A stretch of 64,000 bases of DNA from Paragyromitra xinjiangensis (taxonomy: Eukaryota > Ascomycota > Pezizomycetes > Pezizales > Discinaceae): assembly GCA_038503065.1 (NCBI GenBank), contig JBCAMK010000010.1, positions 248,001 through 312,000 of the forward strand. The letters are read 5' to 3'. The notes under the pieces are model-generated. The model worked only from the letters and a program-made list of their open reading frames with translations, was not told the origin of the DNA and made no database searches. Of the stretch, positions 9,848 to 55,214 are shown piece by piece (within the stretch, counting starts at the first letter, position 1; each line of letters starts with the position of its first letter). A program made the translations under genes and the position numbers.

Positions 9848-9856
9848 CTTCCCCTC
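9848..9856 (-). other. Polypurine tract (PPT) of the copia element
   Basis: On the minus strand GAGGGGAAG sits immediately before the 3' LTR and overlaps the end of the pol stop codon (TGA at 9855-9857). This is the expected plus-strand primer position. Confidence 0.8.
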
Positions 9857-11816
9857 AATTATGACATCCCATCTTATTACAAAGGAAAACATGCTTATTT
9901 CTTTCCAAACCCTTTGTGAATAGATCCGCCACATTTTCTCCTGTTTCCACGTATTCGAGTTCGAATAATCCTTCACTCAGCTTTTCTCGGACGTAGTGGT
10001 AATGTACGTCAATGTGTTTTGATCGTTTATGGAAGGTGGGATTTTCTGATAATGAAATTGCTCCTCCATTATCTTCTCGTATTCGATATCGTGGTTGTCC
10101 TTCTGTTAATGTTTTTAATTCTCCGATTGCTCGCTGTATCCAGACCATTTGTCGACTTGCTTCCGATAACGCTTTGTATTCGGCTTCGACTGTTGATACA
10201 GAAACTGATTTCTGTTTTTGGGACTGCCAGGTAACGAGGCATCCGTTTATGATGAAGCAGTTTCCGGAATATGACCTTCTGTCGTTTATGTCGTAGGCAT
10301 AGTCGGCATCTGCGTATCCTTCGATTGTCGTTATTCCTTTGGTTTTTCTATTGTATACTATCTTGAAGTCTAGGGTTCCTTTAATATATCGTAAAACTCG
10401 TTTTGCTGCGTTGAGGTGTTCCATGGTTGGTCCAGAATTGTATTGTGAAAGCATTGTTACCGTAAATGCTAAGTCTGGTCTGCTGGCAATGACAGCATAC
10501 ATGAGTGATCCGATGATGACTTGATAATCGCGTGGTTCATCAATTAACTCGTCTGTTTCCGGATCGTATTTTCTCAGGCTGACGTTCTTTGGATCCATTG
10601 GGGTCGCAACTGGTCGACAATCTGTCATTCCGAATCTCTCGAGTACTCGTTCTAGGTATGCTTTTTGGGATAAGGTGATGGCGTTTGGTTTAAATTCGAG
10701 AAATATGCCTAAGCCCCATTCTGCAGTGGTGAGTTCGGTCATCGCGAAGGTGTTGTTTAGTTGTTTTCGTACTTCTTTCGATCGTGTGTCGGAGCAATGG
10801 AAGGCGAACATGTCGTCTACATAAACTGCCATGATGATTTCTCCGGATTCGTGAATGAAGACACAGGGGTCAAATGTGCTGGGGGTGAATCCTTCTTTTC
10901 TCATTGTTTTGACCAATTTCTCATACCATTCTCTTGACGCTTGCTTGAGTCCATAAAGACATTTCTTTAGTTTGCAGACGAGTCCTTTAGTTTCTATTCC
11001 TTCCGGAGCTTCCATATATATTTCTTCCTTGAGCTCTCCGTTGAGGAATGCGTTTTTGACATCTCCTTGTTCCATTCTCCAGTTTTTTGGATGTGTGGCA
11101 ATAAGGGCGATGAGTATGCGGAGTGACTCGTATCGACATACCGGGGAAAAGGTTTGGTCGTAGTCTTGTCCCTGTATTTGTGAAAAGCCTTTGGCGACAA
11201 GTCGGGCTTTATAGCGAATGATTTCCCCTCCCGGCCCAAGTTTGTGTTTCAATACCCATTTGCTTTTCACGATTTTTCTTCCCGGGGGTGGCACTACTAG
11301 TTCCCATGTCTGATTTCGTTGAAGGGCGTCTATTTCTTCTTGGATTGCTTCTTTCCATTTTTGTCCGTCTTTTCCGCCGATCGCTTCATTGTAGGATTGT
11401 GGTTCTCCCATGGAAATTGATGTTGATGCGACATATGTTGACTCGTCTGTGGGATCAAATTTTCGTGGTGCATTTCTTGTTCTTCCGGAACGTCTTGGTT
11501 CTTCTTTGGGTGGTTCCGCTGGTGGAATAGGTTCGAGGAGAGGTGATTCTGGCGGTGAGCTGAGGATTCCTTCTGGGGGAGGTTCGCATGCTTCTCGCAT
11601 AAGTCTTTGGAATCGGTCATCATCTATTTCTGAATCTTCGTCATTGTCTCCTATTTCCGCTGATCCTTGATCATCGTCACTGAGTAATTGTTCCTCGTTA
11701 TATGTGAAGGTTCCTTCATCGTCAGTGAGAAGTTGTGAATCTTCTTCGATAAATCCTCCTGGGATGCTTGCCGGGTATTGTGTACTAAGTGTATCGGGAC
11801 TTAATGGAATGATCAT
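9855..11816 (-). CDS. Copia pol, reverse transcriptase-RNase H part
   Basis: Open frame of 653 codons directly continuing the integrase frame after an in-frame TAA. A linker rich in acidic residues and prolines is followed by the copia-type RT (Pfam RVT_2) starting near WELVVPPPGRKIVKSKWV. The polymerase box is AVYVDDM (YVDD catalytic Asp pair). The RNase H domain begins near GYADADYA and includes STVEAEYKAL and KHIDVHYH. The frame is otherwise intact to the stop beside the polypurine tract. The first ATG is only the next methionine after the TAA, so separate initiation is unlikely; the part was probably made as a gag-pol polyprotein before the nonsense change. Confidence 0.93.
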   Translation of the reverse strand: MIIPLSPDTLSTQYPASIPGGFIEEDSQLLTDDEGTFTYNEEQLLSDDDQGSAEIGDNDEDSEIDDDRFQRLMREACEPPPEGILSSPPESPLLEPIPPAEPPKEEPRRSGRTRNAPRKFDPTDESTYVASTSISMGEPQSYNEAIGGKDGQKWKEAIQEEIDALQRNQTWELVVPPPGRKIVKSKWVLKHKLGPGGEIIRYKARLVAKGFSQIQGQDYDQTFSPVCRYESLRILIALIATHPKNWRMEQGDVKNAFLNGELKEEIYMEAPEGIETKGLVCKLKKCLYGLKQASREWYEKLVKTMRKEGFTPSTFDPCVFIHESGEIIMAVYVDDMFAFHCSDTRSKEVRKQLNNTFAMTELTTAEWGLGIFLEFKPNAITLSQKAYLERVLERFGMTDCRPVATPMDPKNVSLRKYDPETDELIDEPRDYQVIIGSLMYAVIASRPDLAFTVTMLSQYNSGPTMEHLNAAKRVLRYIKGTLDFKIVYNRKTKGITTIEGYADADYAYDINDRRSYSGNCFIINGCLVTWQSQKQKSVSVSTVEAEYKALSEASRQMVWIQRAIGELKTLTEGQPRYRIREDNGGAISLSENPTFHKRSKHIDVHYHYVREKLSEGLFELEYVETGENVADLFTKGLERNKHVFLCNKMGCHN

Positions 11817-12909
11817 TTAATACTTTGCTGCTAATTCGGTTCGAGTAGGTATTTTGAATGGAGATGGTTTATCGGTTTGTTCTTTCTCAGTGATTTCTGT
11901 CTGGGTGTTATCTTCGGTTTTTTCGATGTTTTCGGTATCCGTTTGAATTGGTTTCCAGGTATCGAAAGTGATCTCTCGTACTTCCCCTGCTTTCGGTCCT
12001 GGGAATTTTACGTCTCGTGATAGTAATATTTGCCTTCGTCCTTCAACATAAATGCGATACATGCCTGTTCCTTGACCATATCCTACAAACTTCCCCTCGA
12101 TTGCTCTTGCTTCATTTTTGGCTCCTTGTTTCTCAATGGGGATATGTGCGAATGCTCTTTCTCCAAAGGCTTTGAGGTGGCTGATGTCTGGGTTCTTTTG
12201 TAGGAATCGTTTTATTGGTATTTCGTTTGTGGTGGAATGAGGAGTTCTATTTTTTACGTAGTTTGCCGTGGAAATGGCTTCTTCCCATAGGAACGGAGGC
12301 AGTTTGCTGTCGATGAGGGAAGTTCTTGCAATCATTGCGACCGTTCCGTTTAATCGTTCCGATGCTCCATTGGATTGATGTGAGTATGGTGTGGTTGGTT
12401 CGTCTATGATGCCTCTTTTCATCATTACTTCTTTGGCTTCTTCATATTCTCCTCCATTATCTCGTCTAATTCTTTTGACTTTATTTTCGGTTAGATTTTC
12501 GATCATATCTAGCCAGGCAGTTATTGCCGTGGTCGCATCGGATTTCCTTTTAAGGAAGTATACGAATCCCATTCGAGAGAAGTCATCGATGATGAGTATG
12601 TAGTACTCCGCCCCACTTATGGATTTCGTGCTGAACCTTCCCGATAGGTCAGTGTGGATTAGTTGTAGGATTTTTGTGCTTTTTATTTCAGTGCGTGGTC
12701 GCGGTTGCCTTACGGCTTTCCCAAGTAAGCAGGCATCGCATGGATTTTCCAAATGGGGTGGTAATTTCGGGAATTGTTTCCTAATTTGATCGTAGGTTTT
12801 GGCGGAGGGATGTCCGAGGCGCTTATGCCATTCCAGGCTGGTTCCGAATAGGGCTGTATAGGCGAATTCGTTGGTTTCTTGTTCTAGGATAAAGCCTCCG
12901 CTTTCGTTG
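11817..12909 (-). CDS. Copia pol, integrase part (frame interrupted upstream by repeat)
   Basis: The native sequence starts at 12909 (LNESGGFILE..), just after the 426-bp insertion; the open frame reaches 12956 only because the insertion is open there. The gag-pre-integrase zinc motif is WHKRLGHPS..CDACLLGK. The integrase core has the DDE residues in LIHTDLSG, RRDNGGEY and NGASERLN. The C-terminal part includes the copia GKFVGYGQG and DVKF boxes. The frame ends at a TAA (11817-11819) in phase with the RT frame, so this is a single nonsense change or a readthrough point. A CAA-to-TAA change is the simplest explanation. Confidence 0.92.
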
Positions 12910-12914
12910 AGCTG

Positions 12915-13340
12915 TCTCATAGAGCGAAGTCTCGTCAAGCCCTTTGGTATCCCCAAAGGTGAGCAGTGCTACTCGAAAGAGGTTTCGCTACAATGATAGT
13001 ACAATGTTTTCCACAGGCCTCACGTAGGGTAAGAATCGAGGTGATTCTGGGGGGGGGGGGTGACAGTGACAGCGACGACGATGTTTCTGAGGTAGAAACA
13101 GAGATGGTATTTGGATAACAGTACAGTAGAAGTAAAGTAAGAAACGTTGCTTAAGGAAAAGAAAGAAAGAACAATCACAACCGCGGAAATCCATCGCTTA
13201 TATACCCAATCTTCCTCTTTCTATGACTCATCCCTGACTCAACCATTCGAGGCAACCCAACCGAATCACAAAGGAACACAACGAAATAATACAATAACTA
13301 ATCCTTAACACCCCACATGTGCCTGACCTTTATCCATGAA
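12915..13340 (-). repeat. 426-bp insertion in the copia gag-pol frame (copy A of a shared repeat)
   Basis: This segment interrupts the copia frame between protease and integrase (VGKCQ / LNESGG). It is flanked by the 5-bp direct repeat AGCTG (12910-12914, 13341-13345). Removing it with one AGCTG copy restores the reading frame exactly. A clearly homologous 408-bp segment at 54672-55079 interrupts an unrelated Tc1 transposase. On the minus strand it contains a TATATAAGCG box and a 68-codon open frame. Candidates are a solo LTR with non-canonical ends (the duplication size fits) or a small non-autonomous element of unknown class. No clear terminal inverted repeats are visible. Confidence 0.8.
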
Positions 13341-13345
13341 AGCTG

Positions 13346-14878
13346 GCATTTCCCAACTATCGCATCCTTCTCGTCATATAACACCACCCTTTTTCCTTTC
13401 ATCAACGCACTGTATCCTTTTTCTGCAAGGGATCTCCAAGAGAGCAGCTTCATTTTTCCGAGTTCGGGCACCAGATATACGTTTTCTAGGGTCATTCCTT
13501 TATTCTTGTTGCAGTTTGGTATCGTGAGGGTCAGCGTCCCCGTTATCTGGAGTATCCTTCCTCCCGCTACTGAAACTGTTCCTGAGTGAGGTGTGATTTC
13601 TGAATGTTCGTTTTTTCCTATCATGTGTGACGTGGCGCCGGTATCGAAGAGCCATTCTGATGTTTCTAGTGTAGAATAGGTGGATTCTTTTATCGATAGC
13701 AGCGATACGGCTGCCTCTCCTTGCTTTCTTATTTCTTCGAGTGCTTCAGCTGCTTCTCTTGTTTCCATTTGTTCGAAAGCTGCTAGGTCTCTGAAATAGT
13801 TGAGGTCTTCGATCCAGGTACTTTCCTCAAATTCCGTCGTTTCCAGTCTGGTTTGGTAGGTGGGTCCTTGTGCGATCCATGCTCCTAGGTTTACCTCTGT
13901 TATGGTTTGCGCGGCTTGTCCTTGATTTTTCGCTAACCCTGGTTCGTTCTTTTTGTGTTCTTGGTCTCTCTTGTACCTTCTGCACACAGAGAAGTCATGA
14001 GTGGCCGGTTTGCTTCTTGCTGCACAATATCCGCATGGTTTCCTTGCTTGGGCGGCAAAGGCTATAGGAGGGTTACTTGTTTGACGAGTGTCACCGACGT
14101 TTGCAAGTTTTTCATATACTTCGGCGAAGGAGATGTTGTCCTTGGCTTCGAGTACTTCGATTATGTTGGAAAAGGATGGGTGTTGGAGAGAGTGAAGGAG
14201 GTATGCTGCTTTTGCTTCTTCGCTTGTGCACGTAATGTATATGACTGATCCGAAGCTAGGGTCCACAGTAAGTCCTTCTTTGGCGAAGCTTTGAGTTTTT
14301 TCAAGTAACGCGCTCCATAGCTTAGTGAATTCCGCAAGATGTGTGGTTAATCCGTTGGCGGTGGTGCATTGGAGGCTAAGGAGTTTGCGATGCATTTTGT
14401 GGAGGGAGCTGGGAGATTTGCGGTCGAACCTGGTGACAATGTGTTGCCATATTTCCTTCGAGGTATGGCATACCGGTATTTCTCTTGCAAGCTCTGTTTT
14501 GATGTTTTGGTGGATGTAGACTTTGGCTATGGTGTCCTTTTTGGTCCAGTCTTTTGCTGCTTTGATGGCTTCTTCTTGCTTCTTTTTTGTGTCTTCGATT
14601 TCTTTTTCGTTTCGTTTGCCTGCGGATTCGGTTGACTCAGCTTCGGGGGGTTCGGTTTTGGTTTCTTTGACTAGGGTGCTTGGTTTCTCTTCGGTTCCGT
14701 CAACGATTTCCATGAGGTCGTTGATGATCAACATGTCCTGCATGTGTTGTCTCCATGTTGGGAAATCGTTGGCTCCTGAGAGCTTGGTTTCGAGGGACGG
14801 GATTCTTATTCCGGTAGTCATTTTTGATGATACTGTCGTGTAGCTATTTGATAGCGGTATACGGACTTCTGTGTTCAA
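13346..14878 (-). CDS. Copia gag and protease
   Basis: Starts at the ATG at 14878; genuine coding ends near 13346, and the open frame runs on to a stop at 13298 inside the inserted repeat. Residues 25-260 match copia-type gag (UBN2-like: FPTWRQHMQDML, EIWQHIVTRFD, LAEFTKLWSALL). A zinc-knuckle-like cluster lies at residues 282-299 (CGYC..H..C) but with eight rather than four residues before the His. The aspartic protease motif FDTGATSHM is at residues 411-419. Function: capsid, RNA packaging and polyprotein cleavage. The frame is intact up to the insertion. Confidence 0.92.
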
Positions 14879-14934
14879 GATTCTTCGTGGAGGTGGATAA
14901 AGATATTTTTTGCGCAGTGGAAGGATTTTTTAAT

Positions 14935-14948: not shown

Positions 14949-15173
14949 TGTGAATATTGTAAGAAGTGATTTTATTCAGAAACACTGGGGATCTACCCCA
15001 TTTATATACCCCTTAGTTCTTCTTCCCCTCATATAATATTGTTCCGACAATCATTCTCTATCTTATCTTCAACCCCTCTTCTATGGGTCTTTTCCCTCCG
15101 ATACTATATTTCTCTTCCGATACATTCTCTTATGTGGTTCCACCACATAGTACATAATTGCCTCAAATCGACA
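14949..15173 (-). repeat. 5' LTR of the copia element
   Basis: 225 bp, the partner of the LTR at 9623-9847 with two C/T differences. In the element's direction it holds an ATATAAAT box that could serve as promoter. The target duplication CATGT follows at 15174-15178. Confidence 0.93.
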
Positions 15174-16766
15174 CATGTCGCTCTCCCAAATTCTCCTATA
15201 TCTTCTCAGGTATCCCATCACCAAGAACCTTCTATCAACTCAGATACTGAAGTTGATACATCCGAGCCTCAGCCCCCAGTAAAATCCTCCCTCCGTACTG
15301 AGATTTCCGATAGTGTTCGCTCAAAAATCAGAGCACTTCGTACAATAGCTCTGTGGCCATTTCGAAAAATTGGTAGCGAGTTAAATATTCCTCTTACGAC
15401 TGTTTACACAATCTGCCAGCAGCCTTCAACTCCAAACAGATCCCGTGTTGGGCGTCCTAGACTTCTTACTGCATCTATCAGGGAGCGACTTATTCGTCAT
15501 GCAACATCATCACAAGAAAACCGTCGCAAATCTCTTCTACAGATTTCTCATGAGTTAGGAATTATCGTAAACGAACGAACCTTACGGCAAGCATTTGCTG
15601 ACCATGGTTACCATCGACGTGTTGCTCGTGTCAAGCCCTTTTTATCGGTAGAGGCCAAAGTTAAACGTTTCCAATGGGCACAATTGGTGCAAGACTGGTC
15701 TGCTTCTGATTTTCGCAAAGTTATTTGGACTGATGAGAGTGCCTTTAATGTTGGCGGTTTTGCAGGTCATTCTTGGGTGACAAGACGACCAGGTGAAGAG
15801 TATCTTGAAGCCTGTTTGGTTCCAAAGTTTCGAAAACTTGAAACAGTTATGGTCTGGGGCTGTATTTATGGCAACACTAAGGGTCCTCTTGTTTTTTGGG
15901 ATAAAAAAGCATGGGGTACAACTATTAATGGCCCTCGGTATTGTGAGCATATTGTTCGTCCTCACTTGTTCCCATTTTGGCAACTACAGTCTCGGCGCAC
16001 TTTAGATTATATTTATCTTATGCAAGATGGCGCACCTGCACATCGTGCAAAATATACTGCAAATGTGCTTCGGGAATTGGGAATTTTAGGTTATTTTTTC
16101 GCATGGCCAGGTAAACACTTCATCCACCATTAAAGACATACTTCATTATTATATGTTTTTACTAATTTTAAGTCAGGCAATTCACCAGATTGCAATCCTA
16201 TCGAGAATGTGTGGCGGATCATGAAAGACAAAATTGGGCGCCGAGTACCCCGTCCCACAACAAACCCCACCTTGCGCATTGCTATCCAGGAAGAGTGGGA
16301 CGCAATCACAAATGAGGAGATTGCCTCTATGGTTGACTCCATGCCTGAACATGTTGCAGCTGTTGTAGCTATTGAAGGTGGACACACTCGCTATTGAGAT
16401 TTAATTTGACTTTGTACCGGGAGGAAATGATTGTAGTTGGAATATTGCAGTTGGAAATTGAACTCAGGTCTCTTATTTCTTTTCTTTTCTCATATCGCAT
16501 GTCACTCTTTTATTTCCATTTTACTGGCAGAACTTGAAAGGTCATGGTCCGGGTGGAGAGTAAAGCAATCTTGTACTCTTAGGAATTTTCCACGATGTTT
16601 AGCTATAACACAAATTTTCACTCGCTAATCTCATATGCCGACCTATGTCCGTTCGGTCACTTCATGCCTGAGCCTTGTATATCCATCCGAAAACCTTGGC
16701 AAACATCGCCACCTTACCACCTCACCCAAGCTCCAACTCCCAAACAACACAACCAAAACCGCAATC

Positions 16767-30357: not shown

Positions 30358-32130
30358 TTACTTCTCTACGATGGTACGGTGGAATGCTTCGTCAATATTA
30401 CTCGCGGAGCTGGCGCACATTCTGCCTGACAGGCACTCTTTGACGAGTTCTTTGTATGGTTTACTATAACCAAGATCGATTTTTTCGATTTCGTCGAATA
30501 GGCGATCTTTTAGGTCCTGTTGATTCGGAGTATGATCTTGCCTTGCCTGTTCTGGGTCGAGGAGAAGCGATTCCACAGAAGTACCACGGCCTATCTCAAA
30601 AAGCACAATCCCCAAATGGTGGAAAATATTACTTAAACGTATGTCTGAGCGCATGGAATCCAAGAAGTTTGAAGATCCTGGATCTCGGAGGCAATCAAAC
30701 AAGGAGATTTTTTCGTTTTTCTGCTTCGGGGTAGATTCCACCGATAGAAACGGGGAGACATGCTTTGAGGCACATTGGCTGTCTGCAGGGCCGTAGAAGT
30801 GAATGTCATCGGCGTGTAGGGTTTGCCGAATCCACCCCGTCTCATATAGGTGCAAAACGGAAATTGAGATTGTGCAAGCTAATTGAAGGCGCTTCCAGCT
30901 TGATATGAATGGGTCCACCTTCTTGTGAGCTTCTAGAAACTCATGTAGGGAGCATTGCATTGTTTGGGTCCCTGCATTGCTTGTGGATGGTGTCGGGTCA
31001 GGGATACGATGGACCACAATGAGTCCGATATCATCCACTTGTAAGACCTCCAGGCAATTTTCTCCACCCAGGCTTAGTTCGACCAAGCAGCTGACAATTT
31101 CACTAAAAGACTTTGCGTTGCGGACACTTGGGTCTGCCACTAGTTGCGGTATCACATTGAACTCCCTTGCTTCCGCCAACACGAAAAAGTTACTCGCTTT
31201 GGTGCCGGCGTTTCTCACGTATAATGGAAATTTAATGGACTCGTCAGTATCTTTTAGGGACGGAATTGCGCCAAACAAATTGATGTAGTAAGAGAAGTCG
31301 GCTCGCTCTCGTTCGAGCTTGAAATCGATAACATGGGTAGCAGGTAAACTGCTTATTTGCATAGGTGTTTGGATAGCAGCATATAGATTCTTGGCCGCAG
31401 CTCGAACTCGCGGAGCTATCTCGTATGGCTTTGTCGAGCGATTTCTTAGCGAAGTCTCCTCGGCAGAACTTTTCGATAAGGCGTTCAATTGTCGCAACCA
31501 TTCGTCGACTTCCGAGAGAAGAGCCATAAGCTCTTCCTTCACAGCTAATGACCACCTGATCTTTGCTCCGGGGCCGATATTTTCTTTGATCTCATTGGCT
31601 GCTAGGGTAGCTTGTAGTTCTGCTGGGGTTGATGTGGGGGTTGAAGGTTGCTTGCTAGCAACCTTTAGGAATGGCACGAATGATTGCAGGCGAGCGGTCC
31701 AGGATCCTAAAGAGATCGATATTTTTGGGGCCTTCGTTGTCTTGTTGGACGAGGGGGGAGGGATTCGGAGCTTTGGGTCTAGGTTTGCATGACTTGCAAA
31801 GGAATCTGGGTCAATATCTGATAAGAGTTTCTGGCTTTGCCCAAATCGGTTTTCCAGTTGGCCCAAGCACTCCAAAATAGCATAGTGATTATTAGCTCCC
31901 CAAATCCTTCTGTAGCCTTCCTCCCCCGGAGCTAGGAACAAGGCTTTCGTTTCCCAAATCCTACCCCATCGCTCCACAGTTAACTTTTGATGCCTGAGCC
32001 GTATGTATGCACTGACTAAGGAGTTGCCGGCATCCTGGTAGTCTTGCGCAAGCCGTGCGAGAGCCGTGCCTGTCTTAATGGCTAAATCGACAAAACCGAT
32101 GGTAGATAGAACTAGGCCTGTAACGTCCAT
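30358..32130 (-). CDS. HeLo-like domain protein with C-terminal DUF7580-type region
   Basis: 590 residues, single exon, ATG at 32130. The N-terminus MDVTGLVLSTIGFVDLAIKT is the typical start of fungal HeLo-like (prion-inhibition and propagation) domains: an alpha-helical membrane-active bundle over about residues 1-130, with a central LRHQKLTVERWGRIW helix. The C-terminal half (about 280-590) resembles the DUF7580/kinase-like region of such proteins: LHEFL, WKRLQLACTISISVLHLYETGWI, SNIFHHLGIVLFEIGRG. Canonical kinase catalytic residues are not evident. Relatives act in heterokaryon incompatibility and programmed cell death (HET-S, NLR partners); the role here is inferred. It is divergently arranged with the Ras-like fusion gene, sharing 359 bp of 5' sequence that holds a GGA repeat. 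Confidence 0.8.
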   Translation of the reverse strand: MDVTGLVLSTIGFVDLAIKTGTALARLAQDYQDAGNSLVSAYIRLRHQKLTVERWGRIWETKALFLAPGEEGYRRIWGANNHYAILECLGQLENRFGQSQKLLSDIDPDSFASHANLDPKLRIPPPSSNKTTKAPKISISLGSWTARLQSFVPFLKVASKQPSTPTSTPAELQATLAANEIKENIGPGAKIRWSLAVKEELMALLSEVDEWLRQLNALSKSSAEETSLRNRSTKPYEIAPRVRAAAKNLYAAIQTPMQISSLPATHVIDFKLERERADFSYYINLFGAIPSLKDTDESIKFPLYVRNAGTKASNFFVLAEAREFNVIPQLVADPSVRNAKSFSEIVSCLVELSLGGENCLEVLQVDDIGLIVVHRIPDPTPSTSNAGTQTMQCSLHEFLEAHKKVDPFISSWKRLQLACTISISVLHLYETGWIRQTLHADDIHFYGPADSQCASKHVSPFLSVESTPKQKNEKISLFDCLRDPGSSNFLDSMRSDIRLSNIFHHLGIVLFEIGRGTSVESLLLDPEQARQDHTPNQQDLKDRLFDEIEKIDLGYSKPYKELVKECLSGRMCASSASNIDEAFHRTIVEK

Positions 32131-32163
32131 TTGTGTTGTTTGCTTCTCTCAAAGGCTTGTTTT

Positions 32164-32190
32164 GGGAGGAGGAGGAGGAGGAGGAGGAGT
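32164..32190. repeat. GGA/GAG trinucleotide microsatellite
   Basis: About eight GGA units in the shared upstream region of the two divergent genes. It reads as a polypyrimidine tract toward the HeLo gene, common in fungal promoters and 5' UTRs. Confidence 0.7.
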
Positions 32191-32489: not shown

Positions 32490-34640
32490 ATGGATAAAAG
32501 GGAATCTTCTAACTTGATCCAACTTCTAGCACTGCGCTGCCTCCGAGCATTGGAGGGATTGCGGGATTCGAATGATCTAGCTTGGAATTCGCAAGAGTTT
32601 GGCTTGCCTCTTGACGCTATGCTAGGAATCACGTATGAAGCCTCGCGCTTTCGAGACTGGGTTCAACGCTCTGGTGCAGAGGACAAAAGATTTGTCGATA
32701 TTATATCTCGCGAAGATGAGTTACATGAACTTCTTCAGCTCTCTCTGGTTGGGATAGCTGCAGTTGTTCAGATGCTTGGGGGTAAGTAGCGATATCAGTA
32801 ACTTAAGATTGTTGCCCAAGTTGCGTTAGTCTAAAGATGCTGACTGAGTGATAGGGCGTGATCTTGAAATCACAGATGCAGGGTGGATGAAGAGTGACGA
32901 TTTGATGGCAGAAATTGCGTCGAAAACTAAAAATAAGTGGCTAAACCCGCCTGAATCTCACGGCCCTGCAGCGATAAAATTAGTGGAACGATTGGGATCG
33001 GTAGTCGATGACCTTGAATCCTCTATCACAACGTTCGACATGGAGATCGGTTTGGAAAAAGCCGCCCCACAACTTCTTGTAGCTGGAATAGACGAAATAC
33101 CTGGTGGAAAATATGCCCCCAAACAAGCCCTTAAACATATTGCACTGGGGGGAATTACGCCTACAAAGGGTGTTGTGCCTAAAAACCAAGATAGTACAGA
33201 TCCGAGGCGAATTGGAATTGTTAGAGGTGGTGGTGTCAGGGGGCCAGTTTCGCCTCGAGGTATTTTCGTTGAGGTTTACGATCCAGCGGTAAAGGTAGGT
33301 TCTGGAGCACTTGAGTCTTGAAAGTGGGTAGATTTTCTGATCTTAGTTCTCTATTGGTAGTCCTATCGGAAATTTGGGTTGAAACACTCTGGCCAGCTAG
33401 CATATTACAGAAATATCGATATAGGTGGAAACGAACAATGTTCGGCAGTGCCAGAGGTTTGGATTGACAGATTAGATTTTATCTATTTGTGTTACTCCGT
33501 CACATCTCGAGGTAGCTACAGCTTGATTCCGGGAGTAGGATAGCCCACAATCGCGGTCTTGGTGGTTTACTGGCTTACGGTGTCTTGAAACAGACTTATC
33601 GCCAAATTTGCATGATTTATCGCGCGAGAAGTCTCAAGGGCTATAGAGATAAACCTGTGGTTAGATTGGTTGGCACATGGATTGACAAGAAAGGGGTGCG
33701 GCAGATCACAACTGGAGAAGGCCAGGCGTTGTCGGAATCACTCGGGATTTCTTTCATGGAATGCTTTGAAGAAAGCCAGCTATGGGCAATAGAACCAATC
33801 CACATGCCCGCTACCAGGAATACGGAACAGCAGGGGGTTGAGGGTTCTCTGGATGTGCGCTCTCTTATCATTAGCTCTCACTTACCTCTACCAAACCAAC
33901 CATTCCGGTTAATATCTATAATATCTACCTTAATAACTTTGGTCCTTCTACCCTTGGTGTTTTCTTCAAGTTCTGTTCCTGGTTGTTTTTCTTTCTATGT
34001 TTTCGGAACTTATAGTTATCTCCTTGGTGCTTTCTCTTTGGTAATCGCTCTCCGTGCTTGTATTCCCCTTCGTCGTTCCGGGAGCAGCGAGCTAGATGCG
34101 TGTTTGCTTATCATCAACTCTATACCTCTACTAAACCGATCATTCCAGTTAATATTTGCCTTGATAACTTTGGCCCTTCTACCCTTGGTGTTTTCCTCAA
34201 GCTATATTTCTATTCCTGATGGTTTTTGTTTCTATGTTCTTTTCGAAGCTTATAGTTATCTCCTTGGCGCTTTGTCTTTGGTAATCGCTCTCCGTGTTTG
34301 TATTCCCCTTCGTCGTTCCGGGAGCAGCGAGCCAGATGCGTGTTTGCTTATCATCAACTCTATACCTTTACTAAACCGATCATTCCGGTCAATATTTGCC
34401 TTAATAACTTTGGCCCTTCTACCCTTGGTGTTTTCCTCAAGCTATATTTCTATTCCTGATGGTTTTTGTTTCTATATTTCCTCCGAAGCTTATATTTGTC
34501 TCTTTGGCGCTTTGTCTTTGGTAATCTCCCTCATACCTGTACCTCCTACCACGTTCGAGGGCAGCGGAAAGCTAGTGTTTCATAATCATTTGGCGGACAC
34601 AGGCCACCTCTCAGCTAACGAGAAGATTCGATCAGTGTAA
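32490..34640 (+). CDS. Helical N-terminus / Ras-like pseudo-GTPase / tandem membrane-repeat fusion protein
   Basis: Four exons: 32490-32781, 32855-33294, 33361-33534 and 33594-34640 (introns 73, 66 and 59 bp), all in phase, 650 residues. Residues 1-210 are mostly helical, with GITYEASRFRDWVQRSG reminiscent of HeLo-type helices (weak). Residues 215-363 align with Ras: EVYDPAVKSYRK for DEYDPTIEDSYRK, IDIGGNEQCSA for DTAGQEEYSA, LCYSVTSRGSY, TYRQI, then PVVRLVGTWIDKKGVRQ and TGEGQALSESLGISFMEC. The P-loop is lost (RGGGVRGP, no GKS) and NKxD has become TWID, so nucleotide binding is unlikely. Residues 393-630 are three tandem repeats of about 80 residues, each with two hydrophobic helices. Divergent neighbour of a HeLo protein. 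Confidence 0.75.
33864..34586 (+). repeat. Three tandem coding repeats of about 240 bp
   Basis: Units start at 33864, 34107 and 34347, each with CTTATCATyA. Units 2 and 3 are nearly identical at DNA level, including the synonymous positions of CCTTGGTGTTTTCCTCAAGC. Unit 1 is more diverged. The unit length is a multiple of three, so copy number can change without breaking the frame. The last unit diverges after about 190 bp. Confidence 0.9.
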
Positions 34641-47960: not shown

Positions 47961-49150
47961 ATGGCGATGAATGGCGACTATTCCTACTATGGAGACGAAC
48001 TTGACTGGCAGGTGGCGCCCATGCTAGCGTCGATGGTTGATCACGATTTCGACGATGATTCGGATTACGCTTCAGGGTTTGACAGTTATCCATCGTCGGT
48101 TTTATCGAGCGATTATAGCTACAAGTACGAGAATGGTCGACGATATTTTGCGAGGCGACAAGTATGGATCTCCTTGTTGTCCTCCCGCGCATTTTCTAGC
48201 TGGAATTGAGGGGCTTGTTTGTGTTGTTGACAGGTGTTACGGATGGTAGGTTAGGTACCCTTTGCCGCACGACGACGAGGAACGAAATCGTTTAGATTTG
48301 ATGCATCACATCTGGTCCCTTATCCTAGATGGAAAATTGTTCAAGTCTCCAGTCAGCCCCCCAGCTAGCCCTGAGCCATTACGCGTACTCGATGTCGCAA
48401 CAGGGACTGGAATATGGGCGATTGATTTCGCTGAGTGAGTTCTGAACCTTTTATTCCCAGAGTTTATTGACTCTCCCTAACAAAATCAGTCAATTCCCTC
48501 GATCGCAAGTAATAGGCACGGATATCGCACCCGTGAATCCACCTTGGATGCCCTCGAATCTCGAATTCCAAGTTGAGGACATCGAAGACAACTGGACCTT
48601 TCCCGAAAACACCTTTGACTTGATTCACGTGCGTGGGATGGCTGGATTCGTAAATGACTGGCCACGGCTCTTCACACAATGTCTGACTACGCTAAAGCCA
48701 GGCGGGTACATCGAGATACACGACTTCTCCGTGTTTTTCATATCCGATGACGGTTCACTCAGTGACGATAGTGTTTTACATCAGTGGACACAATTATGGG
48801 AAGCAGGCACAGTACGATCTGGGCGCCAGTGGCTTGCAATACCGCCGAATTTTAAAAACTTCGCTGCGGCTACAGGATTCGTCGATGTTGTTGAGACTAA
48901 GTATAAGACACCAGTGGGTAAATGGCCCAAGGAGGAGAAACTCAAGGAAATCGGGGTGTGTATGTCGAAACACCTCGTTGAAGGGGTTGAGGGAATCACG
49001 ATGGACCTCTTCACTAGGGTGCTCTTGTGGGATAAGGCGCAAGTTGATGGGTTAACAGATAAAGTTAGAAAGGAGGTTATGAATCCGAAGATTCACTGCT
49101 ATATGACGGGATATGTCGTTTATGCCAGGAAACCAGCCGCATCATCGTAG
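47961..49150 (+). CDS. LaeA/TAM-type SAM-dependent methyltransferase, copy 1
   Basis: Three exons: 47961-48161, 48250-48434 and 48490-49150 (introns 88 and 55 bp), 348 residues. An acidic, Tyr/Ser-rich N-terminus ends in YENGRRY, the usual leader of this fungal family. Then come YPLPHDDEERNRLDLMHH, motif I VLDVATGTGIWAIDFAD (SAM-binding GTGTG-type loop), VIGTDIAPVNP and FDLIHVRGMAGFVNDWPRL (post-motif region). Family members include LaeA-like regulators and many orphan methyltransferases; the substrate is unknown. The first acceptor (GGTAG/GTTAGG) is chosen because the alternative AG at 48232-48233 leads to a stop. A methionine two codons further in (47967) is an equally possible start. Convergent with a paralogue. 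Confidence 0.87.
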
Positions 49151-49727: not shown

Positions 49728-50826
49728 TTAACAATCCAGCGGTTTCCTCCCATATATCTCATGAATTTTCGAATAAGAGTGAAATTTAGGATTCCTAAAG
49801 TCACCGCGAACCTCCGACAGAAACACACTTATATCCTCCATCTTCCAGCTCAACACCCTCGTGAAGAGCCCTATTGAGATGCTTTCGCACCCTTCTATCA
49901 AATGCTGACGTTGACGCAACCCAAGCTCTTTTTGAAACACATCTTTCGGCCACGTACCGACAGGAACCTTAACAAGATTGTAACTTACATCTTCGAACCC
50001 AGCTTTAGCCAATCCAGCAGCGTGTCCCTCCCGTGGAATTTCTCGTCCAAGTTCTCGTATCCCTTCTCTCCACAAATCAACCCACCTAATCATAGCACAA
50101 CCCTCCGGAACAGTACGATCATCGCACCCGATATCCAGAGTGTCTTTGATTTCGAGGATTCCACCAGGTTTCAGTATTCGCAAAGCTTGCTTGTATAGCT
50201 TCGGCCAGTCGTTAACGAACCCACTGAGTTGACGAACATGCACCAAGTCGAAAGAATTTTTCTTATATGTCCAGACATCTTCGATGTCGTCCACTTCAAA
50301 AGAAACGTTTTCCGGGACCCATCTTGGCTGGATTGGACTAAGGTCGACACCGATTATTTCAGCTTCTGGATGAAACCTAGAAATAGGTCAGTAATGAAAG
50401 AGTTTTCGGTCCCCGCAATTAATACTGAACCACGTACTCTCCGCAGTCTATAGCCCAAGCACCAGTTCCTGTCCCAAGGTCTAGAATCTTTGATGGGTTT
50501 TTCAGAATTGGAGCTCTGTATAGTTTACCCCTCAAAGCTAAGAGGAAGATATAATGATGTAGATCCATTCTGTCCTGTTCTGCTTCATCGTTTGGTGCGT
50601 CATATTTGCCCTAACCACCGATGAAAATCATTAAAAGCTGAAATATATTTTTGCGAGGAACAGAGATCCTTACCTCAAGCCACCCATGATAACCTCTCCC
50701 ATTCTCGTATACGCTATTCATAACAAGTGAATTCAGAGATGTTGTATCACTATCAAACTCAGAGCTATCATCCGAAAAGTCCCCCCCAAACCCAGTATCA
50801 ATCTCAACCGCGTGCGATTCGGCCAT
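49728..50826 (-). CDS. LaeA/TAM-type SAM-dependent methyltransferase, copy 2
   Basis: Three exons: 50826-50674, 50610-50438 and 50376-49728 (introns 63 and 61 bp), 324 residues. Same layout as copy 1: acidic leader with SDDSSEFDSDTTSLNS, VYENGRGYHGWLE, then YDAPNDEAEQDRMDLHHYIF. Motif I is ILDLGTGTGAWAIDC, followed by IIGVDLSPIQP, FDLVHVRQLSGFVNDWPKLY and a C-terminal IHEIYGRKPL. Intron positions match those of copy 1, which supports common descent by duplication. An in-frame ATG 69 bp upstream gives a non-conserved extension and is rejected. Function as for copy 1: probably methylation of an unknown small molecule or protein. Confidence 0.87.
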
Positions 50827-53705: not shown

Positions 53706-55214
53706 CTACCATTTAGTATGACCCCCATGGCGCCTTATAACAGTAGTAATCCTCCTGGGCATGCTATCTATATATCTATACAACATCCTCCACGGCATTT
53801 TTTCCCACACATCCTGAGCAAATGAAATTAATTCCTTTTCATTCCCAGGGATCTTTCTAGCATCTAACATTGCCTCCCGAAGCCTTCTTTTAAAATATGC
53901 CCAAACATTTTCAATGCAATTGAGATCTGGAGAGTAGCCGGGCCAATCCATGCGCCAGATACCATTGAGGAGCCGATATTTTTTTGCATAGTTTGAAGTA
54001 TGCACTCTGGACCCATCCTCTATTGTCTGAACCCCACTTTCGATACCGCCGCGTGCTTCGTAAATAGGTAAAAGGTAGGGACCAAGAAGTTCATGGCAGT
54101 ATTGGGGTGCATTCATGCCGAGACGGTCTTTTTTGCTGACACGCTCTTTTTCAGTGCGTTTTCGAATGACGACTAAGGGAGTATGATAGCCGTATGTGAA
54201 AGCCGCCCAGAACATTACTGAAAGCTTGTCGTTGGCAAAAGAAGGTTCTAGATATCGATCTTCGAGTGATGTACCAGGTGGTCTTCGGACTTTTATTCGA
54301 CCCCCACCACGTCCCAACTCAACCTTAATCTCATCTGTATATATATGCTCGCGCCATGCATATTTTGACCAGTGCCGATGTGCTCATGCAAAAGAGAGTC
54401 TATCCCGCTTGTGTACTCGATCAAGCCATGGTTTTTTCCGTGCAAAATGAATGTAGAAGTCATCCTGTCGCAGGGCGTTACCAACTGTTCTTGCAGAAAG
54501 CCCCAAATTCAAATCAACTGCAATTTCGTGTAACGAAGCACGTGGGTTATTGTTACTTATGCGTCGCAATCGTCTGTGACCCCTTTCGTCAAGTGCAGGC
54601 TTCTTTCCGGGTCGCTTGGGTGGATTGATGGTCCGGAATGTCTTCCATCGTGACACGACACGCTGAGCCTCTCTCAGGGAGCGAGGTTTCGTCAAGCCCT
54701 TTGGTATCCCCAAAGGTGAGCAGTGCTACTTGAGAGAGACTTCGCTACAATGATAATACAATGTTTTCCACAGGCCTCACGTGAGGTAAGAATCGAAGTG
54801 ATTCTGGGGTGCGACAGCGGCAGCGACAATGATGTTTCTGAGGTAGAAACAGAGATTGTATTTTTATAACAGTACGGTAGAAGTAAAGTAAGAGACGTTG
54901 CTTAAGGAAAGAAAGAAAAGAACAATCACAACCGCGGAAATCCATCGCTTATATACCCAATCTTCCCCTTTCCATGACTCATCCATTCGAAGCAACCCAA
55001 CCGAATCACAAAGAAACACAACGAAATAATACAATGACTAATCCTTAACACCGCACATGTACTTGACCCTATCCATGAAAGCCTCAGACTTCGAAAGTGG
55101 AGTCTCTTCAGCGATCTCGCGGTAATTTATGCCTTCGGCATGCTTTTCTATTACCTCTACCCGCTCCTCTGTGGTGGCCTGGCGTCGCTTTTTAGTAACG
55201 GGGTCGATAGGCAT
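53706..55214 (-). pseudogene. Tc1-type transposase (DD34E), interrupted
   Basis: The start is at 55214 (MPIDPVTKKRRQATTEERVE). The first helix-turn-helix runs through NYREIAEETPLSKSEA, where the 408-bp repeat enters. Coding resumes at 54665 as QRVVSRWK in the same frame once one copy of the 6-bp duplication is ignored, totalling 365 codons including the stop. One in-frame TGA lies after DRLSFA (54382-54384), a likely CGA-to-TGA change. The catalytic core is IYTDEIKV (Asp), IEDGSRVHTS (Asp) and SPDLNCIENVW (Glu), with 34 residues between the last two. The usual NPIE is NCIE here. It is inactive in this copy. Confidence 0.87.
54672..55079 (-). repeat. 408-bp insertion in the Tc1 transposase (copy B of the shared repeat)
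   Basis: Homologous along its length to 12915-13340: same TATATAAGCG-type box, same TGTTAAGGATTAG block, same GGGATACCAAAGGGC end region. It is flanked by the 6-bp direct repeat AGCCTC (54666-54671, 55080-55085), which differs from the duplication around copy A. The two are therefore independent insertions. The 12-G homopolymer of copy A is GGGG here. Confidence 0.8.

Follow-up and report, generated by a model that had tools for sequence, protein, structure and literature searches.

The 64,000-nucleotide stretch analysed here, called the window throughout, corresponds to C10:248001-312000 of a 48.2-Mb assembly of 22 contigs, and positions given below are counted from its first letter. Its fungal character is indicated by introns, by Copia-type and Tc1-type elements and by the presence of SDE2 and PTPA genes. 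The Copia-type element, named by eye and with split reading frames, occupies 9855-14929 on the minus strand and is adjoined by a Tc1-type transposase frame at 14970-16133 (+) carrying HTH_Tnp_Tc3_2. Another frame that resembles a transposase is found at 53706-54383 (-), and two methyltransferase genes at 48446-49150 (+) and 49728-50387 (-) are a related pair in opposite orientation.

The gene of interest, a fusion gene on the plus strand at 32490-34640, is described by a model of four exons and 650 codons uninterrupted by stops.

32490..32781, + strand: exon 1, from the ATG at 32490 to the donor GTAAGT at 32782; residues 1-97 plus one base
32782..32854, + strand: intron 1, 73 bp, GTAAGT..TAG, with CTGAC at 32840
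32855..33294, + strand: exon 2, residues 98-244; predicted helical N-terminus to about 215, strand 1 and P-loop remnant, switch I to YDPAVK
33295..33360, + strand: intron 2, 66 bp, AAG|GTAGGT..TAG|TCC, at the site of an intron in the Ras-1 gene of the same genome
33361..33534, + strand: exon 3, residues 245-302; SYRK, DxxG (DIGGNE) and strand YSVTSR, with alignment to Ras
33535..33593, + strand: intron 3, 59 bp, GTAGGA..CAG; its removal restores the frame and a gapless Ras alignment
33594..34640, + strand: exon 4, residues 303-650 with the stop codon; latter half of the Ras-like part (to about 372), then the hydrophobic tail

All three introns have GT..AG borders. Reading frame and homology guided their choice, and we infer from the sequence that the four exons are spliced together. 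For intron 3 the donor must be GTAGGA at 33535; the alternative at 33512 disrupts the frame. With donor 33535 in use the junction SVTSRGSYSLIPG|TYRQI aligns to Ras with no gap. The four exons proposed in an earlier, sequence-only reading of this DNA thus agree with the coordinates, the intron borders and the 650 open codons. Coding composition is uneven along the model. The N-terminal part scores above 107 of 117 reference windows, the G part above 10 of 145 and the tail above none of 84. On synonymous choice alone the G part exceeds 101 of 145 windows and the tail 10 of 84, the low overall scores of these two parts being due to their amino-acid make-up.

The order of parts put forward in that reading, a predicted helical stretch followed by a Ras-like module and then a hydrophobic repeat tail, is upheld at the sequence level. 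The central part is the best defined.

33208..33803, + strand: Ras-like pseudoGTPase region, residues 216-372, split by introns 2 and 3; Pfam PF00071 match, with motif losses

Judged by sequence similarity, the Ras-like domain is real. The Pfam Ras profile (PF00071, gathering cut-off 21.6 bits) matches residues 235-359 over profile positions 24-141 of 162; the score is 35.2 bits (E 1.1e-8) when the full protein is counted and 39.4 for the domain. This bears out the Ras similarity claimed earlier. The PDB agrees, with 258 distinct sequences at E<=1e-3; the best 60 of the 258 are Ras-family proteins, led by Rap2A (E 3.5e-11), R-Ras2 and Rit1. The exon-4 piece alone (33561-33764) gives 21.1 bits, below the cut-off, and ranks last of the 52 rows of a Ras-family search of the same genome; the Ras match therefore depends on the spliced model. 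When open frames at the own-genome loci L001-L048 were compared, the best non-self match was Ras-2 (E 1.7e-13, 48.6 bits) and the next reached 17.2 bits. BLAST against four small GTPases of this genome placed Ras-2 at 63.5 bits (31.5% over 146) and Ras-1 at 47.8, with lower scores for Rheb (34.7 bits) and a Rab (16.9). Of the same-genome paralogues compared, Ras-2 and then Ras-1 are the closest by sequence; both genes (C3:2615451 and C18:809424, respectively) are named by similarity.

A small-GTPase module with lost nucleotide-binding motifs had been inferred earlier, and alignment supports this, with assignment to the Ras subfamily. The P-loop remnant IVRGGGVRGPVS aligns with VVGGGGVGKSC of Ras-1, and the G1 motif GxxxxGK[ST] is absent (GGGVRGPVS compared with GGGVGKSC). 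The stretch before YDP has a net loss of four residues, leaving helix 1 shortened or broken. In G2, Thr35 is replaced by Ala (YDPAVK as opposed to YDPTIE). G3 reads DIGGN, keeping the Asp and Gly of DxxG with Gln61 changed to Asn. G4 has gone from NKxD to TWID, and G5 is lost, SAK being replaced by CFE (CFEE). The claimed loss of the P-loop Lys/Ser and of NKxD is accordingly right for the Lys/Ser and for the N and K, the D of NKxD having been kept. The DxxG of G3 is, by alignment, the sole nucleotide-binding motif to survive, with the Asp alone remaining from G4. Beyond the Ras-like core the counterpart of helix 5 is missing and there is no C-terminal CaaX; the protein ends NEKIRSV, where Ras-1 and Ras-2 of the same genome end CVIL.

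By sequence the GTPase function is dead, and the domain is predicted to be a nucleotide-free, class (i) pseudoGTPase under the published scheme (PMC5593906), whose examples p190RhoGAP pG1/pG2, CENP-M and fungal dynein LIC do not bind nucleotide. Switch I is altered as well, with E37 changed to Lys; D38 is either substituted or missing, according to how the sequences are aligned. Residues 31-42 are reported as invariant in a published survey of the Ras family (PMC9882654). With the contact residues T35, E37 and D38 lost, the usual Ras effectors are unlikely to meet the face of active Ras, and simple mimicry of active Ras toward them is unlikely on the same sequence grounds.

The position of intron 2 carries information on origin. 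In the same-genome Ras-1 gene the Asp38 codon is split by an intron behind its first base (GAAG|GTAGGC..AAG|ACTCC); intron 2 of the fusion gene comes directly after codon 37, so that in an ungapped alignment the two sites are one base apart. In Ras-2, the top-scoring match, the intron is at a different place (after TIQ), and nothing corresponding to intron 3 was seen in the Ras-1 or Ras-2 sequences of this genome that were inspected. The coincidence at the Ras-1 site links the domain with a Ras gene that contained an intron, and it speaks for the splice between exons 2 and 3. In vertebrate Ras genes the first intron also follows codon 37. The intron phases of those genes are given as 0, 2 and 0 in PMC9882654.

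The N-terminal part looks helical in structural models. Single-sequence AlphaFold2 places helices in the exon 1 part at residues 3-26, 30-37, 41-61, 66-73 and 75-96 (mean pLDDT 54.9, low confidence), and residues 99-215, modelled alone, are also helical (mean pLDDT 49.4, low confidence); the two pieces were modelled as separate, low-confidence halves. Four of the predicted helices in the N-terminal part span 21 to 24 residues. In the earlier description of this part as helical and vaguely HeLo-like, the word helical agrees with these low-confidence models. For residues 1-204 a Pfam search at E<=10 returned no family, and the best PDB hit (E 0.32) was unconvincing. An own-genome HeLo profile was made of 18 HeLo rows, out of 25 in this genome, and the divergent neighbour described below. 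Residues 1-215 score -0.6 bits against it, a value exceeded by 9 of 200 shuffles, and hhalign gives a probability of 0.6%. There is local resemblance between YEASRFRDW and the HeLo E..L..W motif. Kinship of the N-terminus with HeLo (PF14479) is not shown by these comparisons.

The tail is built from a tandem repeat detected at 33919-34526, with a 240-bp unit present in 2.6 copies.

33858..34097, + strand: tail repeat A, residues 391-470
34098..34337, + strand: tail repeat B, residues 471-550
34338..34577, + strand: tail repeat C, residues 551-630, end diverged

The three units give six hydrophobic segments. Unit B, 41% T, has two, and two or more occur in 27.4% of 5000 shuffles of it; another of its reading frames likewise gives two. 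On these figures, taken from one unit, the segments do not exceed what composition provides, as would be expected of a multi-pass membrane protein. No amino-acid constraint on the repeats was found when dN/dS was compared with simulation. B versus C gives dS 0.119, dN 0.128 and dN/dS 1.08 (simulated no-selection P 0.56), and A versus B gives 0.192, 0.176 and 0.92 (P 0.46). In favour of a kept reading frame, the repeat unit is open in 2.7% of shuffles, the diverged copies had chances of 0.42 and 0.31 of acquiring no stop, and each of the six internal gaps in the DNA alignment is a multiple of three (3, 9, 6 and 3 bases for A-B; 3 and 3 for C). We read this as a tail that is translated, at least until recently, its sequence being free apart from the frame. 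Of the membrane repeats claimed earlier, the 240-bp repeats and six segments stand and their membrane nature is weakened, the hydrophobicity of a repeat unit lying within the range that shuffles of its T-rich DNA give. The further suggestion of a membrane-targeting or membrane-disrupting tail is doubtful because composition accounts for the hydrophobicity of the repeat unit (27% of shuffles) and the repeats are without amino-acid constraint, with dN/dS of about 1.

Upstream lies a divergently transcribed gene, head-to-head with the fusion gene, the two start codons being 359 bp apart.

30358..32148, - strand: divergent neighbour, ATG at 32130, intronless; HeLo-type N-terminus and DUF7580

The neighbour scores 44.5 bits for DUF7580 (cut-off 27) and 16.4 for HeLo, below the cut-off of 23.2. 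It reaches 134.7 bits against the own-genome HeLo profile, but is itself within the training set. It is possible that the neighbour is a partner of the fusion gene. The shared intergenic stretch holds a (GGA)8 run at 32165-32189, a short way upstream of where the HeLo-DUF7580 gene starts. By eye, the C-terminal half of the neighbour is kinase-like. Such a half joined to a HeLo-type N-terminus would presumably resemble the layout of MLKL, a 4HB domain plus pseudokinase. DUF7580 is a sizeable family, found at 21 places in this genome, several of which adjoin HeLo rows (e.g. on C8, C15 and C21). Six of the 25 HeLo rows (L049, L050, L053, L054, L055 and L058) cluster within about 40 kb at C11:1940455-1980566. 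No paper on DUF7580 was found in the literature searched.

In its own genome the fusion gene is single-copy; matches to the Ras part, the N-terminal part and the tail fall on the gene's own exons only. The Ras-part query was approximate at the junction of exons 3 and 4 (one residue added, eight missing), for which the Ras-family search with its 52 rows is the better check. Protein searches drew on candidates of 0.55-1.75 x 650 amino acids, a range with ordinary Ras proteins and single-exon pieces outside it. Within it, residues 1-390 gave 7,996 scored candidates and none at E<=1e-3, whereas at E<=10 there was none among 3,685 for residues 1-215 or among 207 for residues 216-375. Prokaryote genome contigs gave 23 pattern matches and viral contigs six, with no relatives in either. 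The collections searched for relatives are prokaryotic, viral or of uncertain fungal content, and orphan status among fungi is not implied. No paper was found in the literature search on an architecture of helical part, dead Ras domain and hydrophobic repeats. In the portions available, both 'Ras' matches in PMC9815663 are RasMol, and PMC4986451, PMC12881547 and PMC10197012 hold no match for Ras or GTPase. The claim that there is no described family with this architecture holds to the extent that none was found in the literature; the proteins searched are of uncertain fungal content and absence elsewhere is not implied.

What kind of gene is this? Has a Ras domain been put to a new use, is a chimera falling apart, or have unrelated pieces been joined by the model? 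We tentatively prefer the explanation that the product of the locus is a class (i) pseudoGTPase, lineage-specific and derived from Ras, which serves as a fixed binding module held at a membrane by its tail. A Ras-subfamily G domain with an intron in switch I would have been placed behind a helical N-terminal domain. Nucleotide binding, and with it switching, would have been lost, leaving a fixed surface for protein binding on the switch II side and the central sheet. In place of a prenylated CaaX end, as in Ras-1 and Ras-2, there would be the hydrophobic tail, possibly membrane-holding. Folding, membrane attachment and a scaffold role are properties that we infer for the fusion protein. This explanation is supported by the Pfam Ras score of 35.2 bits, the best PDB hits, the BLAST matches to Ras-2 and Ras-1 and the site of intron 2. 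It is supported also by a frame kept for 650 codons, by repeat gaps in multiples of three and by the N-terminal coding composition. The published class (i) pseudoGTPases bind no nucleotide and pseudoGTPases such as CENP-M act as scaffolds (PMC5593906), which lends further support. It is weakened by the tail (dN/dS of about 1, hydrophobicity explained by composition), by the low coding composition of the G part and tail, and by the lack of any relative in the collections searched, which leaves conservation of the domain unsupported. With a shortened helix 1 and no helix 5, the G fold may not form.

The same features suit a decaying gene or recent chimera with no selected function, in which an old helical-plus-Ras gene lost the ends and active site of its Ras part and had its frame extended into T-rich tandem DNA. 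This is only somewhat less likely, and is a serious contender given that the G domain lacks its ends and that the repeats are free of amino-acid constraint. Helix 1 is shortened, helix 5 and CaaX are gone, the dN/dS values of 1.08 (B-C) and 0.92 (A-B) are as expected without selection, 27% of shuffles of a repeat unit yield at least as many hydrophobic segments, and the gene is single-copy with no relatives found in the collections searched. Against decay stand 650 codons with neither stop nor frameshift and the good N-terminal coding composition, together with a repeat frame that is open in few shuffles (2.7%), has no-stop chances of 0.42 and 0.31 and has six of six gaps in multiples of three; tested in this way, through the keeping of the frame, decay is not clearly supported. 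That the N-terminal part, Ras part and tail belong to different transcripts, or that the tail is spliced out or untranslated, is unlikely. The tail does look less like coding sequence than any other part, outscoring none of 84 reference windows, and the three short introns were picked by frame and homology, but the Ras similarity crosses two junctions, intron 2 sits at the Ras-1 site, removal of intron 3 restores a gapless Ras alignment and a single open frame in exon 4 spans the Ras end and the tail.

Bolder proposals centre on the N-terminus and the neighbour. A new architecture may be imagined in which a helical, possibly bundle-type effector is under the control of the dead Ras domain, a self-duplicating six-segment membrane tail serves as anchor, and the gene, paired head-to-head with the HeLo-DUF7580 gene, has a part in regulated cell death or the recognition of non-self, where it would be a latch or sensor; we give this a slim chance. 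Slimmer still is that of a membrane killer of HeLo/4HB type, with an N-terminal four-helix bundle and the dead Ras domain as trigger or latch, perhaps together with the HeLo-DUF7580 neighbour. The four predicted helices of 21 to 24 residues, the YEASRFRDW resemblance and the HeLo-type domain of the head-to-head neighbour would fit a killer, but Pfam yields no HeLo match at E<=10, the own-genome HeLo profile gives -0.6 bits (9 of 200 shuffles do better), the hhalign probability stays at 0.6% and both N-terminal models are low-confidence halves.

The sequence-only reading distinguished three parts: the first is confirmed, another cannot be shown, and the remaining one may simply reflect base composition. 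If the preferred explanation, a Ras-derived pseudoGTPase serving as a fixed binding module, is true, a Ras domain that has given up nucleotide and prenyl anchor within a fusion would represent a further route from switch to fixed part. Should relatives share the losses, the family would directly test the usefulness of the Ras fold without GTP; if not, the locus would be a clear case of a Ras paralogue decaying within a chimeric gene. To our knowledge, pseudoGTPases are far less catalogued than pseudokinases.

Several known systems invite comparison. In the Miro/Gem1-type GTPases a hydrophobic C-terminus, with no lipid, holds a GTPase domain at the membrane, as the tail putatively does here. 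Miro differs in having two GTPase domains, EF hands and one transmembrane segment. The fungal proteins of cell death that carry HeLo or HeLo-like domains (PMC9815663, PMC12881547) have a helical N-terminal region of about 200 residues ahead of other modules, as is predicted for the fusion gene, and differ in lacking profile similarity to its N-terminus. With the class (i) pseudoGTPases the likeness lies in degraded G motifs in a GTPase-like domain within a larger protein, nucleotide binding not being expected. The difference is that p190RhoGAP pG1/pG2, CENP-M and dynein LIC have been assayed or solved whereas the present domain is a prediction; they are compared here by description, the sequence check being the PDB search with its best 60 of 258 in the Ras family. 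The nearest comparison is with the fungal Ras-2 and Ras-1 themselves. The fusion gene shares with them the Ras-subfamily core from YDP to strand 6, and intron 2 at the Ras-1 site. It differs in lacking G1, G2, G5, most of G4, helix 5 and CaaX, in its shortened helix 1, and in an extra N-terminal domain and a tail that are absent from both.
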